DNA of 64,000 nt from Flavobacterium haoranii (GTDB lineage: Bacteria > Bacteroidota > Bacteroidia > Flavobacteriales > Flavobacteriaceae): positions 62,001 through 126,000 of the forward strand of contig QKBC01000025.1 of assembly GCA_003246205.1 (NCBI GenBank). The letters run 5' to 3'. The stretch's first letter is position 1. Each line of letters opens with the position of its first letter. The translations under genes and the position numbers were made by a program. Of the stretch, positions 49,928 to 64,000 are shown piece by piece. The notes under the pieces were generated by a model. The model had not been told where the DNA came from, did no database searches, and worked only from the letters and a program-made list of their open reading frames with translations.

Positions 49928-50731
49928 ATGATGTTGAATAAAAATTTTGAAATAGCGATACAAGCTGCTGTAAAAGCCGGAGAAAAAGTAAACGAGATCT
50001 ATAATAATTTTGACGGAGAGGTTATTGTAAAAGAGGATGATTCACCTTTAACTATCGCTGATAAAGAATCAAATGAGATCATAAAAAACTTTTTGACAGC
50101 AACAGATATTCCCATTATAAGTGAGGAAATCAAAAATGCAGATTATTCTTTGCGAAAAACTTGGAATATCTGTTGGTTAGTTGATCCGTTAGACGGGACA
50201 AAAGAGTTTATAAAAAGGAACGGACAATTTACGGTGAATATTGCATTGATTGAACAAGGACGCCCTGTTTTCGGAGTGATTTATGTACCTGTTTCAAAAG
50301 AACTTTATGTTGGTTTTGTGAATGAAAAAGCAAGCTATTACTATAAGAATGTAAACAAAGTTTTTTCATTAGAGGATTATATAAAGAATGCTGTAGAATT
50401 ACAACCGGTTTTGCCTTCATCTGAAATTACGGTGGTTTGTAGCAATTCACATTTGAATGAAGAAACAGAACAGTTCATTAAAGAATTGGGAAAAAAATTT
50501 ACACAAGTAAATAAAGTAAATGCAGGAAGCTCATTAAAATTTTGCTTAGTCGCTAGTGGTAAGGCTCATGTTTATCCCAGATTAGCGCCAACGATGGAAT
50601 GGGATACAGCGGCCGGACAAGCAATCTGTAATGCTGTTGGAGTAAAGGTTGTAAACCAAGAAACAGGTGGTGAACTACAATATAATAAAGAGAATTTGCT
50701 CAATCCGAGCTTTGTAGTAGAATATGACTAA
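49928..50731 (+). CDS. cysQ: 3'(2'),5'-bisphosphate nucleotidase
   Basis: WLVDPLDGTKEFIKRNGQFTVNIALI; EWDTAAGQAI. Confidence 0.93.
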   Translation: MMLNKNFEIAIQAAVKAGEKVNEIYNNFDGEVIVKEDDSPLTIADKESNEIIKNFLTATDIPIISEEIKNADYSLRKTWNICWLVDPLDGTKEFIKRNGQFTVNIALIEQGRPVFGVIYVPVSKELYVGFVNEKASYYYKNVNKVFSLEDYIKNAVELQPVLPSSEITVVCSNSHLNEETEQFIKELGKKFTQVNKVNAGSSLKFCLVASGKAHVYPRLAPTMEWDTAAGQAICNAVGVKVVNQETGGELQYNKENLLNPSFVVEYD

Positions 50732-51158
50732 AGTTTCGCATATACGACATATTACAAAAGCAATTACATGGCGTATTGTAGGAACATTAGATACCATGTT
50801 ACTTTCATGGTTTGTTACCGGAAACCCGTGGATAGGTTTAAAGGTAGGAGTAGCTGAGCTGATTACTAAAATGACTTTATATTATTTACACGAAAGAATA
50901 TGGTATAGAGTAGATCTTAGTCAGTTAGGTTTGAATGAAGATAGTAGAAAAAGACATTTGCTGAAAGCAATGTCTTGGAGAATAGTAGGTTCGATAGATA
51001 CTTTTATATTAGGATGGCTGATCTCAGGAGATCCGTTTATCGGGATAAAGATCAGTATTTTTGAAGTGGTAACAAAAATGATACTGTACTACTTACATGA
51101 AAGAGTTTGGTATCGTATAAAATTTGGAATAATAAAAACAGTTGACGATGAGTACTAA
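50724..51158 (+). CDS. Tandem-duplicated DUF2061 membrane protein (two domains)
   Basis: KAITWRIVGTLDTMLLSWFVTGNPWIGLKVGVAELITKMTLYYLHERIWYR and KAMSWRIVGSIDTFILGWLISGDPFIGIKISIFEVVTKMILYYLHERVWYR. Confidence 0.92.
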   Translation: MTKVSHIRHITKAITWRIVGTLDTMLLSWFVTGNPWIGLKVGVAELITKMTLYYLHERIWYRVDLSQLGLNEDSRKRHLLKAMSWRIVGSIDTFILGWLISGDPFIGIKISIFEVVTKMILYYLHERVWYRIKFGIIKTVDDEY

Positions 51159-51747
51159 TATTCATGAACATACTTTTGAGATTGATAAAGCCAAACGGCA
51201 AGAGCTTTTAAAACAAAAAGCAGTTTTAGTTTGGTTTACCGGATTATCAGGATCCGGAAAGTCAACAGTTGCAGGAATGTTAGAAAAAAAATTATTCGAT
51301 TTAAATTTCAAAACATACCTATTGGATGGCGATAATGTTAGAGGAGGCCTAAATTCTAACTTAAGTTTTTCTATTGAAGACAGAAAAGAGAATATCCGAA
51401 GAGTAGCCGAGGTAGCTCGTCTTTTTCTAGACTCAGGAATCGTTGTTTTAGCAAGTTTTGTTTCCCCTTTAGAAGAATACAGAAAGCTTGTTAAGGAAAT
51501 TGTAGGGCAAGAAAATTATGTGGAGGTTTTTGTAGATACACCACTTGAAGAATGTGAAAAAAGAGATGTAAAAGGACTATACGAAAAGGCCAGAAAAGGA
51601 ATGATAAAAGATTTTACAGGGATTTCATCTCCTTATGAAAAACCAACTAATCCGGACATTTCTATTGATACCTCTAAGTTAAGTCTTGAAAATTCTGTAA
51701 ATTTGATTTTTGAAAAAATAAAAGATAAGATAACCCATCATGAGTAA
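51142..51747 (+). CDS. cysC: Adenylyl-sulfate kinase
   Basis: VWFTGLSGSGKSTVAGMLEKKL; LDGDNVRGGLN. Confidence 0.97.
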   Translation: MTMSTNIHEHTFEIDKAKRQELLKQKAVLVWFTGLSGSGKSTVAGMLEKKLFDLNFKTYLLDGDNVRGGLNSNLSFSIEDRKENIRRVAEVARLFLDSGIVVLASFVSPLEEYRKLVKEIVGQENYVEVFVDTPLEECEKRDVKGLYEKARKGMIKDFTGISSPYEKPTNPDISIDTSKLSLENSVNLIFEKIKDKITHHE

Positions 51748-52645
51748 ATATTATTTGAATTACTTAGATGAATTAGAAGCTGAAGCAATCTTTATTTTAA
51801 GAGAGGTTTGGGCTCAATTTCAAAACCCTGTAATCCTGTTTTCAGGGGGGAAAGATTCAATTGTAGTAACCCATCTGGCTAAGAAAGCTTTTTACCCGTC
51901 AAGTATTCCTTTTCCGTTAATGCATATTGATACCGGTCATAACTTTCCGGAGACAATGAAGTTTAGAGATGACTTGATAGAAGAGTTAGGAGTAGGATTG
52001 ATCGTAGGTTCTGTTCAAGAATCAATCGATCAAGGAAGAGTAGCAGAAGAAAAAGGAAAAAATGCTTCAAGAAATGCATTACAAACAACAACACTTTTGG
52101 ATGCTATAGAAACAAATAAGATAGATTGTGCTATAGGAGGAGGAAGAAGAGATGAAGAAAAAGCGAGAGCAAAAGAACGATTCTTTTCTCATCGTGATGA
52201 TTTCGGACAATGGGATCCTAAAAATCAACGTCCGGAACTTTGGAATTTACTAAACGGGAAACATTTTCAAGGAGAACATTTCAGAGCCTTTCCGATTAGT
52301 AATTGGACAGAATTAGACGTTTGGAATTATATAAAAAGAGAAAATATAGCGATACCATCTTTGTATTTTGCTCACGAAAGAGAAGTAGTCTGGAGAAATG
52401 ATGCCTGGATTCCGAACTCTGAATTTTTGAAATTAGAAGAGAACGAAAAGATTGAATTCAAAAAAATCCGATTCAGAACATTGGGAGATATTACAATTAC
52501 CGGCGGTATCGAATCAGATGCTGATACGCTGCATAAAATTGTTGAAGAAGTAGCGACAATGAGATTAACGGAACGAGGAAACAGAGCAGATGATAAACGT
52601 TCTGAATCAGCAATGGAAGATAGAAAAAGACAAGGATACTTTTAA
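51740..52645 (+). CDS. cysD: Sulfate adenylyltransferase subunit 2
   Basis: VILFSGGKDSIVVTHLAKKAFYP; GGRRDEEKARAKER. Confidence 0.97.
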   Translation: MSKYYLNYLDELEAEAIFILREVWAQFQNPVILFSGGKDSIVVTHLAKKAFYPSSIPFPLMHIDTGHNFPETMKFRDDLIEELGVGLIVGSVQESIDQGRVAEEKGKNASRNALQTTTLLDAIETNKIDCAIGGGRRDEEKARAKERFFSHRDDFGQWDPKNQRPELWNLLNGKHFQGEHFRAFPISNWTELDVWNYIKRENIAIPSLYFAHEREVVWRNDAWIPNSEFLKLEENEKIEFKKIRFRTLGDITITGGIESDADTLHKIVEEVATMRLTERGNRADDKRSESAMEDRKRQGYF

Positions 52646-52654
52646 AAAAAGAAT

Positions 52655-53911
52655 ATGCAAATAGACAATAATCAGTTATTACGTTTAGCAACCGCAGGTA
52701 GTGTTGATGATGGTAAAAGTACACTTATAGGAAGACTATTATACGATTCAAAATCTATTTTTGAAGACCAGATAGCGGCTATAGAAAATACAAGCAAGAA
52801 GAAAGGATACGACGGAGTAGATTTAGCGTTGTTTACTGACGGACTTCGAGATGAAAGAGAACAAGGAATTACCATTGATGTTGCCTATCGGTATTTTACG
52901 ACTCCTAAAAGAAAATTCATTATAGCCGATACTCCGGGACATATTCAATATACCCGAAATATGGTAACAGGAGCATCAACGGCTAACGTAGCAATCATCT
53001 TGATTGATGCCAGAAAAGGAGTTATAGAACAAACCAAGAGACATTCCTATATAGCGTCACTTTTGCAAATACCGCATGTGATTGTTTGCGTGAATAAAAT
53101 GGATTTAGTAGAGTATTCAGAAGAAGTATTTAATAATATTGTTTCCGATTATGAAAGTTTCTCTTCAAAATTATTGATCAAAGATGTTCGGTTTATTCCG
53201 ATAAGTGCTTTGGTCGGAGATAATGTTGTAAACGCATCAGAGCAAATGCCTTGGTTTAAAGGATCACCGCTTTTAAATACATTAGAAACCATGCATATCA
53301 GTAGTGATAACAATAAAATTGATGCCCGTTTTGCTGTGCAGACTGTTTTACGTCCGCAAAAAGACGAGTTCATTGATTACAGAGGATATGCCGGAAGAAT
53401 ATTAAGCGGAATTTACCGAAAAGGTGATAACGTAACAATTCTTCCTTCAGGTTTTACATCAAAGATAAAAACAATAGATTTCTACGACCAGTCATTGGAG
53501 GAAGCATTCGCACCAATGTCTGTTTCCATTACTCTTGAAGATGATATCGATATCAGCAGAGGGGACATGATTGTGAAAACCAACAATTCACCGGAACCTT
53601 CGCAAGAGTTTGATGCTATGATTTGTTGGCTGAACAATAAACAGGCACAACCTCGTGCAAAATACTCAATTTTACATACTTCCAATGAGCAAAAAGCCAT
53701 GATTAAAGATGTGGTTTATAAAGTGAATATCAATACGTATGAAAGAAATGAAGAAGACAAAGACTTTCAGATGAATGATATTGGAAGAGTGAAACTTAGA
53801 ACAACAAAACCGTTAATGATCGATTCGTATAGAGACAACAGATTAACAGGAAGCTTTATATTAATTGACGAAGGAACAAACGAAACGGTGGCTGCCGGAA
53901 TGATCATATAA
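52655..53911 (+). CDS. cysN: Sulfate adenylyltransferase subunit 1
   Basis: LRLATAGSVDDGKSTLIGRLLYDSK; DTPGHIQYTRNM; NKMDLV. Confidence 0.97.
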   Translation: MQIDNNQLLRLATAGSVDDGKSTLIGRLLYDSKSIFEDQIAAIENTSKKKGYDGVDLALFTDGLRDEREQGITIDVAYRYFTTPKRKFIIADTPGHIQYTRNMVTGASTANVAIILIDARKGVIEQTKRHSYIASLLQIPHVIVCVNKMDLVEYSEEVFNNIVSDYESFSSKLLIKDVRFIPISALVGDNVVNASEQMPWFKGSPLLNTLETMHISSDNNKIDARFAVQTVLRPQKDEFIDYRGYAGRILSGIYRKGDNVTILPSGFTSKIKTIDFYDQSLEEAFAPMSVSITLEDDIDISRGDMIVKTNNSPEPSQEFDAMICWLNNKQAQPRAKYSILHTSNEQKAMIKDVVYKVNINTYERNEEDKDFQMNDIGRVKLRTTKPLMIDSYRDNRLTGSFILIDEGTNETVAAGMII

Positions 53912-57467: not shown

Positions 57468-58532
57468 ATGTCACTTACCCGATACATCCCCTTTTCATAT
57501 AAAATCAGAATCTTACTGCTTTTACAACAATTAAAACCGCTACACTATTTTAAAGATAGAAATGAAAATAGTTCGGATAAAAAAATAGTTGTCTTTCTAG
57601 CGGCTAATTACAGCAATCTGGGAGATGTGGCTATAACGTATGCACAAAAGAAGTTCATTACCGAATCATGTCCGGATTATAAAGTAATTCCGATTCCTAT
57701 CAGCGAAACCTTAGAAGGAATTGTATGGGTAAAATCTATTCTGAATCCTGAAGATAAGATTACTACTGTAGGAGGAGGAAATTTCGGAGATCTGTACGAT
57801 CAGATCGAAACATTACGTCAGTTGGTTGTAGAAAATTTTCCGAATAATAAAGTTATTTCTTTTCCGCAAACTTTTGATTTTTCGCCTTCCGAAAAAGGAA
57901 AAAAAGCACTGAAAACAGCTCAAAGATGTTATTCAAAACATCCCAATTTGGCATTCTTTCTTAGAGAGCAAAAGTCATTCGGATGGATGCAAAAAGCGTT
58001 TCCCGAAGTGAGCTCCTTTTTGACTCCCGATATTGTTTTAAGTTTGGATCAGTCAGAACCGCAGTTGGAACGAAAAGGAGTTACTCTTAGTTTGAGAAAA
58101 GATGATGAAAAATTGCTAACTAAGAACGATGAAAAACAACTGCTGGATTTTATTTCCAACCGATTTGGGCAAGTTGCTTTTTATGACACACATTTGAATA
58201 AAGGAAATCTTTCTGAAACAGCATGCGATGCCGAACTGGAAAAAATATGGAACCAATACAAAACATCAGAATTGGTGATAACAGACAGGCTTCACGGAAT
58301 GATCTTTAGTTATATAACCAATACGCCTTGTATCGTATTTCTGAATAACAACCATAAAATAGAAGAATCATACAATTGGATCAAAGAGTATGCACCCATT
58401 ATTTTGATGCGTGAATTTTCAGTTTCAGCATTTGAAGCAGCAATACAAGATATTTTTAATAAATTTAGTCAGCGAAAATACCATTCGTTAAAAGAACGAT
58501 TCGAACCACTTAAAGAACAATTAACCTGCTAA
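57468..58532 (+). CDS. Polysaccharide pyruvyl transferase family protein
   Basis: NYSNLGDVAITYAQKKFI; VGGGNFGDLYD; TDRLHGMIFSYITNTPCI. Confidence 0.88.
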   Translation: MSLTRYIPFSYKIRILLLLQQLKPLHYFKDRNENSSDKKIVVFLAANYSNLGDVAITYAQKKFITESCPDYKVIPIPISETLEGIVWVKSILNPEDKITTVGGGNFGDLYDQIETLRQLVVENFPNNKVISFPQTFDFSPSEKGKKALKTAQRCYSKHPNLAFFLREQKSFGWMQKAFPEVSSFLTPDIVLSLDQSEPQLERKGVTLSLRKDDEKLLTKNDEKQLLDFISNRFGQVAFYDTHLNKGNLSETACDAELEKIWNQYKTSELVITDRLHGMIFSYITNTPCIVFLNNNHKIEESYNWIKEYAPIILMREFSVSAFEAAIQDIFNKFSQRKYHSLKERFEPLKEQLTC

Positions 58533-60639: not shown

Positions 60640-61761
60640 ATGAAGAAGATCTGTTTCGTTGTTTCAAGCCCCTTAACGGCTCAAGCCTTTATGCTTAAAC
60701 ATTTTGAGTATCTGTCTCAAGAGTTCGATATTACATTGGTGGCTAACTTTGAAACGGAGGAACAGCATCACATTCCTTTTGTGAAAGAAACTAAGGATAT
60801 AAAGATTGTACGGAATATTAATCTTTTGTCAGATTTAGCGGCGTTGTACCAACTCTATAAATATTTGAAACAACAGCATTTCGATGCTGTACATTCTATA
60901 ACTCCAAAAGCAGGATTAATTGCCACTTCAGCAGCATGGCTGGCAGGAGTAAAACTTCGGATACACATTTTTACAGGACAGGTTTGGCATACACAAACCG
61001 GATTAAAAAAGAAATTGTTACAGTTCTTAGATAAGGTAATGGTCTTTTTTGCTACGGATATATTAGTGGACGGCCAATCGCAACGGGATTTTCTAATTGA
61101 GAATCACATTATCAAAGCCCAAAACTCAAAAGTATTAGGAAAAGGCTCTATCAGTGGTGTCGATGTGTCTAAGTTTATACTGAATCAGACATTAAAGGTA
61201 GAGTTAAGAAAACAATTAGGCTATTCAGATGATGAGGTGGTATTTGTTTTTTTAGGAAGAATGAATCGCGATAAAGGGATTTTAGATTTGGTAGCAGCTT
61301 TTAAAAAATTATATCAGGAATTTCCCCAAACAAAACTTTTATTGATAGGTATGGATGAAGAGAATCTGCGACCGGAAATTGAACAGATGCAAAAAGAAGG
61401 GATTTTCTTTTTCGGGTTAACCCGAAAGCCTCAGGAAACACTACAAGCGGGAGATGTTTTTTGTTTGCCGAGTTACAGAGAAGGTTTCGGAACCAGTGTC
61501 ATTGAAGCTTCGCTTCTGCAAATGCCTGTGATTTGTAGTGATACGTATGGCTTAGCAGAAACAATAGTAGACAATGAAACCGGGTTAAGGCATAAAGTAG
61601 CAGACAGTGAAGATCTTTACAAACAAATGAGAACATTGTTTTTAGATGCTAATCTGAGAAAATCGATGGGAGAAAAAGGAAGGGAATATGTTTTGGAATA
61701 TTTTTCGGCAGATGAAATTTCACGCCATTGGTTAGCATTTTATAAGGAAAAACTAAATTGA
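60640..61761 (+). CDS. Glycosyltransferase family 4
   Basis: [49 protein letters not shown]. Confidence 0.92.
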
Positions 61762-61762
61762 G

Positions 61763-62365
61763 ATGTACGCAAAAGTATTCAAACCTTTATTCGATTTTGT
61801 TTTAGCATTTGTTGCTTTTGTATTGCTTTTGCCATTATTTGTGATAATAACATTTTTGCTGGCCATTGCAAATGAAGGAAAACCATTCTTTTTTCAAAAG
61901 CGTCCCGGAAAAAATGAAAAGATATTTAGCATCATCAAGTTTAAGACTATGAACGATAAAAAAGATGCAAAAGGAAATTTATTATCCGATGCAGATAGGT
62001 TAACAGCAGTTGGGAATTGGGTTCGAAAATTATCATTGGATGAAATCCCGCAATTATTGAATGTTCTTAAAGGAGATATGAGTTTAATAGGGCCACGCCC
62101 GTTATTACCGCAATATCTTCCTTTATATAATGATTTTCAGAGGAGAAGGCACGAAATAAAACCGGGAATTACAGGTTGGGCACAAGTAAACGGGAGAAAC
62201 GCATTAGATTGGCAAACTAAATTCAAATATGATGTGTGGTATGTGGATCATGTTAGTTTTTTTACCGATTTAAAAATAGTATATTTGACAGTCAAAAAAG
62301 TCCTGAAAAAAGAAGGGATTAATCAACAAGGGCAAGCAACAGCAGAAGCCTTTAAAGGAAATTAA
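61763..62365 (+). CDS. Undecaprenyl-phosphate sugar transferase (PglC/WcaJ-type initiating transferase)
   Basis: [77 protein letters not shown]. Confidence 0.95.
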
Positions 62366-62367
62366 AA

Positions 62368-63372
62368 ATGGGAGCAACAATACAAGCTATAGAATACGTT
62401 TTTCCAAAAAATAAAGTAACAAATAAAGATTTGTTACTACAATTCCCGGAGTATGATTTTAAGAAGTTTGACGACAAAGTTGGCATCAGTTGTCGTTATT
62501 ATGTTGATGAGAATGAAACCGGTTTAGATTTAGCCGTGCAGGCTTGTGAAAAGCTGTTTCAAAGAATAGATAGCGCTACAATTGATTATATTTTATATTG
62601 TACACAAAATCCTGATTATATTCTACCTACAACGGCTTGTCTTTTACAAGACAGGTTAGGTTTATCTAAAAATGTTGGAGCTTTAGATATTAATTTAGGT
62701 TGTTCAGCTTATACTTATGTTTTAAGTTTAGCGAAAGCACTGATTAATTCTGGTCAGGCTAAAAATATTTTGGTGGTAACAGCAGAAACATACTCTAAAA
62801 TCCTCAATGAAAGAGATTGTTCTAACAGAGCTATTTTCGGAGATGCAGCTACCGCAACTTTAGTGTCATACACTGAAGAAGAAAATTTCGGTGACTTCTT
62901 GTTCGGAACGGATGGCTCTGGTGTAGAAAAATTGTTTGTGAAAAACGGGGCTTCAAAATATAAATTCGAAAGTAATCCGGAAGTAAAAACATATGGGAGT
63001 GGTAATTTTTATACAGATAATGACTTGTATATGAACGGACCTGAAATTTTCCATTTTACAGGAGAAGTTGTGCCGGGATTTGTAGAAGAATTATTAGAAG
63101 CCAATCAAGTAGAAAAAGATCATATAGACCAATATATTTTTCATCAGGCAAATGCTTTTATGCTGAATTTTTTGAGAAAGCGATTAAAAATAGAAGAAGA
63201 ACGCTTTTTTATTGATTTACGAGATGGAGGAAACACTGTTTCATCAACTATTCCAATCGCATTAAAGAAATACAGCCAAAAAATAACAGAGAAAGAAACT
63301 CTTTTATTGGTTGGTTTCGGAGTAGGGTTATCTTGGTCAGGAGGATTAGTTACCATAAACAATAAATTATAA
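62368..63372 (+). CDS. 3-oxoacyl-ACP synthase III (KASIII) homologue
   Basis: Cys in INLGCSAYTYVLSLAKAL, His in IFHQANAFML, Asn in RDGGNTVSSTIPIAL: Cys-His-Asn triad present. Confidence 0.92.
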   Translation: MGATIQAIEYVFPKNKVTNKDLLLQFPEYDFKKFDDKVGISCRYYVDENETGLDLAVQACEKLFQRIDSATIDYILYCTQNPDYILPTTACLLQDRLGLSKNVGALDINLGCSAYTYVLSLAKALINSGQAKNILVVTAETYSKILNERDCSNRAIFGDAATATLVSYTEEENFGDFLFGTDGSGVEKLFVKNGASKYKFESNPEVKTYGSGNFYTDNDLYMNGPEIFHFTGEVVPGFVEELLEANQVEKDHIDQYIFHQANAFMLNFLRKRLKIEEERFFIDLRDGGNTVSSTIPIALKKYSQKITEKETLLLVGFGVGLSWSGGLVTINNKL

Positions 63373-63378
63373 CTGAAA

Positions 63379-63609
63379 ATGAATAAAGCTGAATTTATCA
63401 AAGGTTTAGAAGAAGAATTAGAGTTAGAGATCACGTTAACAGCAGAAACGGATTTAAAAGGATTAGACGAATGGGATTCTATGGCTGCTATGCTTTTAAT
63501 AGGATATGTCTCTAATGAGTTTGGTTTGACTTTAACAGCAGACGATATTAAGAATATCTCAACAGTACAATCTTTGATCGAGCGTATCGGAGTAGAAAAA
63601 TTCAACTAA
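63379..63609 (+). CDS. Acyl carrier protein
   Basis: 76 aa; phosphopantetheine site GLDEWDSMAAMLLIGYV. Confidence 0.9.
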   Translation: MNKAEFIKGLEEELELEITLTAETDLKGLDEWDSMAAMLLIGYVSNEFGLTLTADDIKNISTVQSLIERIGVEKFN

Positions 63610-63610
63610 A

Positions 63611-64000
63611 ATGCTACAACATTTTAAAGGTATCCATATTACAGCTTTAAAAACCTGTGTTCCGTCTCAGGTTGTGTCCAATGCTTTTTTTGAAGAACTG
63701 CTGAGTCCCAAAGAAATCAAGATCTTTGAAAAAACAGTCGGAATTAAAAACAGACGTTGGGCAACAGATAATATAACGGCTCTTGATTTAGGATATGAAG
63801 CGGCTAATTCATTGTTGAAAGAACATGATGTTGCTCCTTCTGAGGTTGAATGCCTGATCTTCTTAAGTCAAACCCCGGATTATAAGATACCTTTTTCATC
63901 TAATATTTTACAAGCTAAGCTGAATTTGCCACAAAATATTCTGTGCTTGGATGTCAATGCAGGCTGTGCCGGATTTGTTCAGGGATTAGGAACCGCTTTT
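63611..64000 (+). CDS. Second KASIII homologue (partial, runs off window)
   Basis: MLQHFKGIHITALKTCVPSQVVSN...CLDVNAGCAGFVQGLGTAF with nucleophile Cys motif. Confidence 0.88.
   Translation, partial: MLQHFKGIHITALKTCVPSQVVSNAFFEELLSPKEIKIFEKTVGIKNRRWATDNITALDLGYEAANSLLKEHDVAPSEVECLIFLSQTPDYKIPFSSNILQAKLNLPQNILCLDVNAGCAGFVQGLGTAF

Follow-up and report, generated by a model that had tools for sequence, protein, structure and literature searches.

A KASIII-ACP-KASIII cassette in a Flavobacterium haoranii polysaccharide locus and its proposed role in N-acylation of the initiating amino sugar

The 64,000-nucleotide stretch of the Flavobacterium haoranii genome analyzed here, referred to as the window (G000:C14:62001-126000, so that window position 64000 is C14:126000), ends inside a polysaccharide locus, and a further 37 kb of contig sequence read past this edge show that the locus continues. 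An earlier note on the window described a beta-ketoacyl-ACP synthase III (KASIII), an ACP and a partial second KASIII behind a PglC-type transferase, and the open reading frames, Pfam domains and Cys/His/Asn motifs all agree with that description. The genes concerned are the following, with contig (C14) coordinates given for those past the window edge.

60640..61761, plus strand: GT4 glycosyltransferase (Pfam Glycos_transf_1), 1 bp upstream of PGT1
61763..62365, plus strand: PGT1, PglC-type initiating sugar-1-phosphate transferase, WfpB-like (Pfam Bac_transf, 5.8e-62)
62368..63372, plus strand: KASIII-1, WfpC-like beta-ketoacyl-ACP synthase III, 334 aa (Pfam ACP_syn_III, ACP_syn_III_C)
63379..63609, plus strand: ACP, WfpD-like, dedicated, 76 aa (Pfam PP-binding, 2.3e-07)
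63611..64000 (window edge; whole gene C14:125611-126660), plus strand: KASIII-2 (KAS2), WfpE-like, 349 aa
C14:126672-127400: KR, FabG-like SDR with the Ser-Tyr-Lys pattern
C14:127378-128034: AcT, PglD-type N-acyltransferase (TIGR03570)
C14:128041-128595 (L002:5042-5596): second PGT, a shorter bacterial sugar transferase of 184 aa, between AcT and PglE
C14:128592-129734: PglE, DegT-type aminotransferase (nearest PDB matches 1o61/4ztc)
C14:129797-131773: PglF, 658-aa membrane dehydratase (Polysacc_synt_2 family)

The gaps from PGT1 to KASIII-1, ACP and KASIII-2 are only 2, 6, and 1 bp, indicating that these genes form one operon, and the entire run from GT4 (60640) through PglE, with gaps of −23 to +11 bp between successive genes, appears to be spaced as in a single transcription unit. 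Beyond the edge, the remainder of KASIII-2 is followed by KR, AcT, the second PGT, PglE, and PglF, and on the 3' side of PglF lie Wza, Wzc and then a Wzm/Wzt pair. The earlier note proposed that the cassette is a mini acyl assembly line feeding the N-acylation of an amino sugar, a proposal to which downstream genes unrelated to sugar acylation would be contrary. The sequence past 64 kb supports it, since a FabG-like SDR, a PglD-family acyltransferase, a PglE-like aminotransferase, and a PglF-like dehydratase are all found there, and the contrary case of unrelated downstream genes did not arise.

The identities of these proteins can be read directly from their domains and motifs. KASIII-1 and KASIII-2 are both members of the beta-ketoacyl-ACP synthase III family, as each has the two domains (found by Pfam in the complete KASIII-2 at locus L002) and the catalytic Cys/His/Asn motifs, which are LGCSAY / FHQAN / GGNTVS in the former and AGCAGF / LHQSN / FGNTSG in the latter, where Cys119, His267, and Asn297 are invariant in a 17-sequence alignment. 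The phosphopantetheine Ser of the ACP lies within WDSM of the motif LDEWDSMAAM. PGT1 is a PglC monotopic phosphoglycosyl transferase, with the Asp-Glu dyad in SLDEIPQ and a full-length match to its best PDB relatives, 8g1n/8e37 PglC (diNAcBac-1-phosphate transferase; E 5.6e-67). AcT belongs to the PglD/NeuD sugar N-acyltransferases, with the His in a GHD motif and a score of 169.9 bits (TIGR03570 curated cut-off 160.8), and VioB and C. jejuni PglD are among the closest proteins of known structure. The sugar-forming, acyltransferase, and loading enzymes are thus of the same families as those encoded by pglC/D/E/F of the C. jejuni diNAcBac pathway, in which PglD transfers acetyl. No KAS, ACP, or KR is known to be dedicated to PglD in C. 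jejuni.

The protein families of the cassette are identical to those of primary metabolism, and the two KASIIIs and the ACP might accordingly be additional fabH and acpP copies working in ordinary fatty-acid synthesis. They score only 205 and 206 bits, however, against the FabH reference model TIGR00747 (curated cut-off 292.1), well below it, while three of the at least six KASIII genes in the genome lie elsewhere and reach 363-385 bits. A second ACP is located on contig C19, this and the cassette copy being the only two ACP matches; the assembly is only 74.5% complete, and the KASIII and ACP counts are therefore minimum numbers. Moreover, there is no ACP, PglD-type, or PglC-type gene within 1.5 kb on either side of the three FabH genes. 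These results make a role in ordinary fatty-acid synthesis extremely improbable and bear out the view of the earlier note that this is not a housekeeping context. The sixth KASIII (G000:C14:4940-5989; L144), at 189 bits, is also below the FabH cut-off and is situated ~56 kb upstream of the window.

We propose, with a probability of about 85%, that the cassette serves as a small dedicated type II fatty-acid/polyketide line, making a short hydroxyacyl-ACP for the N-4 acylation of UDP-2-acetamido-4-amino-2,4,6-trideoxy-D-glucose (UDP-Qui2NAc4N), the sugar with which the polysaccharide is initiated. In this route PglF and PglE would generate UDP-Qui2NAc4N from UDP-GlcNAc, one KASIII would condense acetyl-CoA with malonyl-ACP to give, after reduction by KR, 3-hydroxybutyryl-ACP, and the other would add a second malonyl unit to give, again via KR, 3,5-dihydroxyhexanoyl-ACP. 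Neither a dehydratase nor an enoyl reductase is among the cassette genes and the hydroxyls would therefore be retained. The PglD-type AcT would then transfer the acyl group to N-4 of the sugar, and a PglC-type transferase would transfer the sugar phosphate to undecaprenyl phosphate, although the second small transferase between AcT and PglE leaves some doubt as to which of the two PGTs handles the acylated sugar. That some short hydroxyacyl group is placed on N-4 is highly probable, and that it is 3,5-dihydroxyhexanoyl, made via two condensations, is the favored but less secure assignment. The gene identities, gene order, catalytic motifs and joint divergence of the acyl genes with AcT are shown here, and from them we infer all of the chemistry, including which KASIII acts before the other and precisely which C6 group is made.

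The hypothesis linking such a cassette to a sugar acyl group is already published for F. psychrophilum, in which wfpC (KAS), wfpD (ACP), wfpE (KAS), wfpF (KR), and wfpG (PglD homologue) are proposed to make the 3,5-dihydroxyhexanoyl substituent of Qui2NAc4N and transfer it to the sugar; wfpB is taken to encode the PglC-like transferase that acts first, and formation of the sugar itself is attributed to pglE/pglF (Cisar et al., 2019, PMC6519341). The glycan structure was solved chemically, the gene roles were assigned by homology, and such N-acyl groups contribute to the differences between serotypes (PMC6519341). In the locus described here KAS, ACP, KAS, KR, and the PglD-like gene are in one run that matches the published C-D-E-F-G lettering, and the PglC-type transferase and pglE/pglF share the locus with the cassette, as in F. 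psychrophilum R1, for which a type II FAS-like route to the N-4 acyl group was likewise proposed. The parallel with F. psychrophilum that was raised in the earlier note therefore extends to the whole gene set, apart from the additional 184-aa PGT between AcT and PglE. The likeness is drawn from the published gene list and adjacency, and the R1 locus was not among the loci from our genus search and named-genome scan. From its position, GT4 is proposed to be the WfpA counterpart that would add sugar 2.

Two further known systems are comparable. The viosamine island of P. syringae has one KASIII (vioS), acp, vioR, and vioB, its glycan bears N-(3-hydroxy-1-oxobutyl)viosamine, and deletion of vioR abolished the modified viosamine, as determined by MS (PMC3927599). 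It resembles the present locus in that KASIII, ACP, KR, and an acyltransferase work together to N-acylate a 4-amino-6-deoxy sugar, but differs in its single KASIII, its use of dTDP-viosamine and its target, a flagellin glycan rather than the initiating sugar of a polysaccharide. In the O-antigen of V. cholerae O3, Qui2N4N carries 3,5-dihydroxyhexanoyl at N-4 (PMC3210612), a likeness at the level of glycan structure to the acyl group and diamino sugar predicted here.

Relatives were obtained by a genus search and a named-genome scan, and BLAST comparison with the proteins of the window served to annotate their loci. The genus search with KASIII-2 gave eight further close copies, a search of 251 genomes across the family (E ≤ 1e-60) matched the window genome alone, and a plasmid search gave only distant KASIIIs, all <60% identical. 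The 80 relatives, chosen by KAS2 similarity and hence not a random sample, include three architectures. Type A, PGT1-KAS1-ACP-KAS2-KR-AcT-(PGT2)-PglE-PglF, is that of the window, a second genome (G420) that is 91-100% identical to it gene by gene, and Lacinutrix algicola. Type B, found in six Flavobacterium genomes, differs by a Rieske oxygenase placed between KAS2 and KR, and type C is PGT1-ACP-KAS-KR-AcT, usually with PglE next, in which the single KAS is ~37% identical to KAS2. Among the 52 of these KAS2-selected loci with full flanks, an ACP is nearby in 50, a KR in 41, and a PglD-type AcT in 35; all 35 with AcT have an ACP, and of these 19 contain a single KAS and 16 at least two. The second PGT of 184 aa occurs likewise in G420 and in a Salinivirgaceae locus (L062).

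If the cassette feeds AcT, then AcT is expected to evolve in step with it, with no such effect on the sugar genes, and the sequence identities agree with this. In a small comparison of three type A, six type B, and 11 type C loci, grouped by their architecture and read as a pattern without a formal test, identities between types A/B and type C are 27-28% for AcT, 25-27% for ACP, 38-39% for KR, and 37-39% for KAS2, compared with 54, 52, 53, and 67%, respectively, within type C. For the sugar genes, PGT1 (60%), PglE (62-65%), and PglF (48-54%), the values between types are about equal to those within type C (61, 61, and 49%). AcT, ACP, KAS, and KR diverge jointly and the sugar genes do not, which connects the enzyme that N-acylates the sugar with the acyl cassette, and we consider this clear pattern in the sequences to be the new evidence that the present analysis would add to the published proposal. 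It also bears on the alternative raised in the earlier note, a lipid or secondary metabolite as the product, in which case the cassette would have no link to the sugar and would lie in the locus by chance. In other Bacteroidota KASIII-ACP pairs do adjoin GT2 and GNAT genes without a PglD-type gene (for example L067, L075, and L076), but here there are no other biosynthetic genes in the vicinity, the operon from PGT1 to AcT is tight, Lacinutrix algicola and Salinivirgaceae keep the same neighborhood, and AcT diverges together with the cassette, so that this alternative is very unlikely. As for the PglC-type transferase, Cisar et al. suggested that the C-terminus of WfpB tracks acyl type (PMC6519341); in our alignment the last columns of PglC show slight type-specificity at most (52 vs. 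45% identity), are comparable to other segments and give no clear support.

In a tree of 126 KASIIIs, with clades delimited by hand, 32 of 33 adjacent KAS pairs come from different clades, and recent tandem duplication therefore does not account for the pairs. The paired enzymes may thus have distinct functions, one in priming and one in extension, whichever of the two takes each role. One KAS with a C4 group in P. syringae and two with a C6 group in F. psychrophilum would fit one condensation per KAS, a rule that is drawn from these two cases. The same cassette and sugar might instead yield another short acyl group, such as 3-hydroxybutyryl, 3-hydroxy-3-methylbutyryl, or a mixture, through an unusual or branched primer or through KASIIIs acting in parallel. 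Qui4N of Shewanella MR-4 carries 3-hydroxybutyrate or 3-hydroxy-3-methylbutyrate depending on the medium (PMC3210612), and single-KAS cassettes are common in the relatives. We nevertheless regard such a product as rather unlikely, as the gene set matches that linked to the C6 dihydroxy group in F. psychrophilum and the nearly invariable cross-clade pairing suggests two different steps.

The Rieske non-heme iron oxygenase of the type B cassettes (PF00355 and PF00848), with visible CxH/CxxH and ExYHxxxxH motifs, is encoded at the following positions and also in L055-L057.

L036:7516-8601: Rieske oxygenase
L037:7102-8175: Rieske oxygenase
L039:11642-12721: Rieske oxygenase

The enzyme may hydroxylate the acyl chain, and no earlier example of a Rieske oxygenase in cassettes of this kind came up in our literature search. 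We tentatively suggest, as an idea that could well prove wrong, an exchangeable acyl code across the Bacteroidota in which the number of KASIIIs would set chain length (C4 for one, C6 for two), the Rieske oxygenase in the six Flavobacterium cassettes would add a hydroxyl, and AcT would be exchanged together with the cassette, leaving the sugar genes in place. Should the acyl group prove to be predictable from KAS number and accessory genes, the side groups of polysaccharides would become readable from genomes, and the two-enzyme line would offer a small system for studying how KASIIIs choose chain length.

Additional acyl genes are present near the first cassette in two relatives, comprising an aminotransferase, a GNAT, an AMP-binding protein, a KASIII, and a KR in G492 (L137:4071-10659) and a KASIII and an ACP in G640 (L138:6925-9475). 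In both cases they adjoin look-alikes of QdtA/FdtA-type sugar isomerases, which points to another acylated sugar, distinct from the first. The start of the F. haoranii locus (window 49928-53911) has an inositol-phosphatase-type gene, an APS kinase, a PAPS_reduct-domain (CysD-type) gene, and a CysN-like GTPase, and two sulfotransferases are found downstream (L002:16765-18554); from this gene content the locus glycan is probably sulfated. A polysaccharide pyruvyl transferase (PF04230) at window 57468-58532 is flanked by glycosyltransferases, and a pyruvate ketal may be present on the repeat unit.
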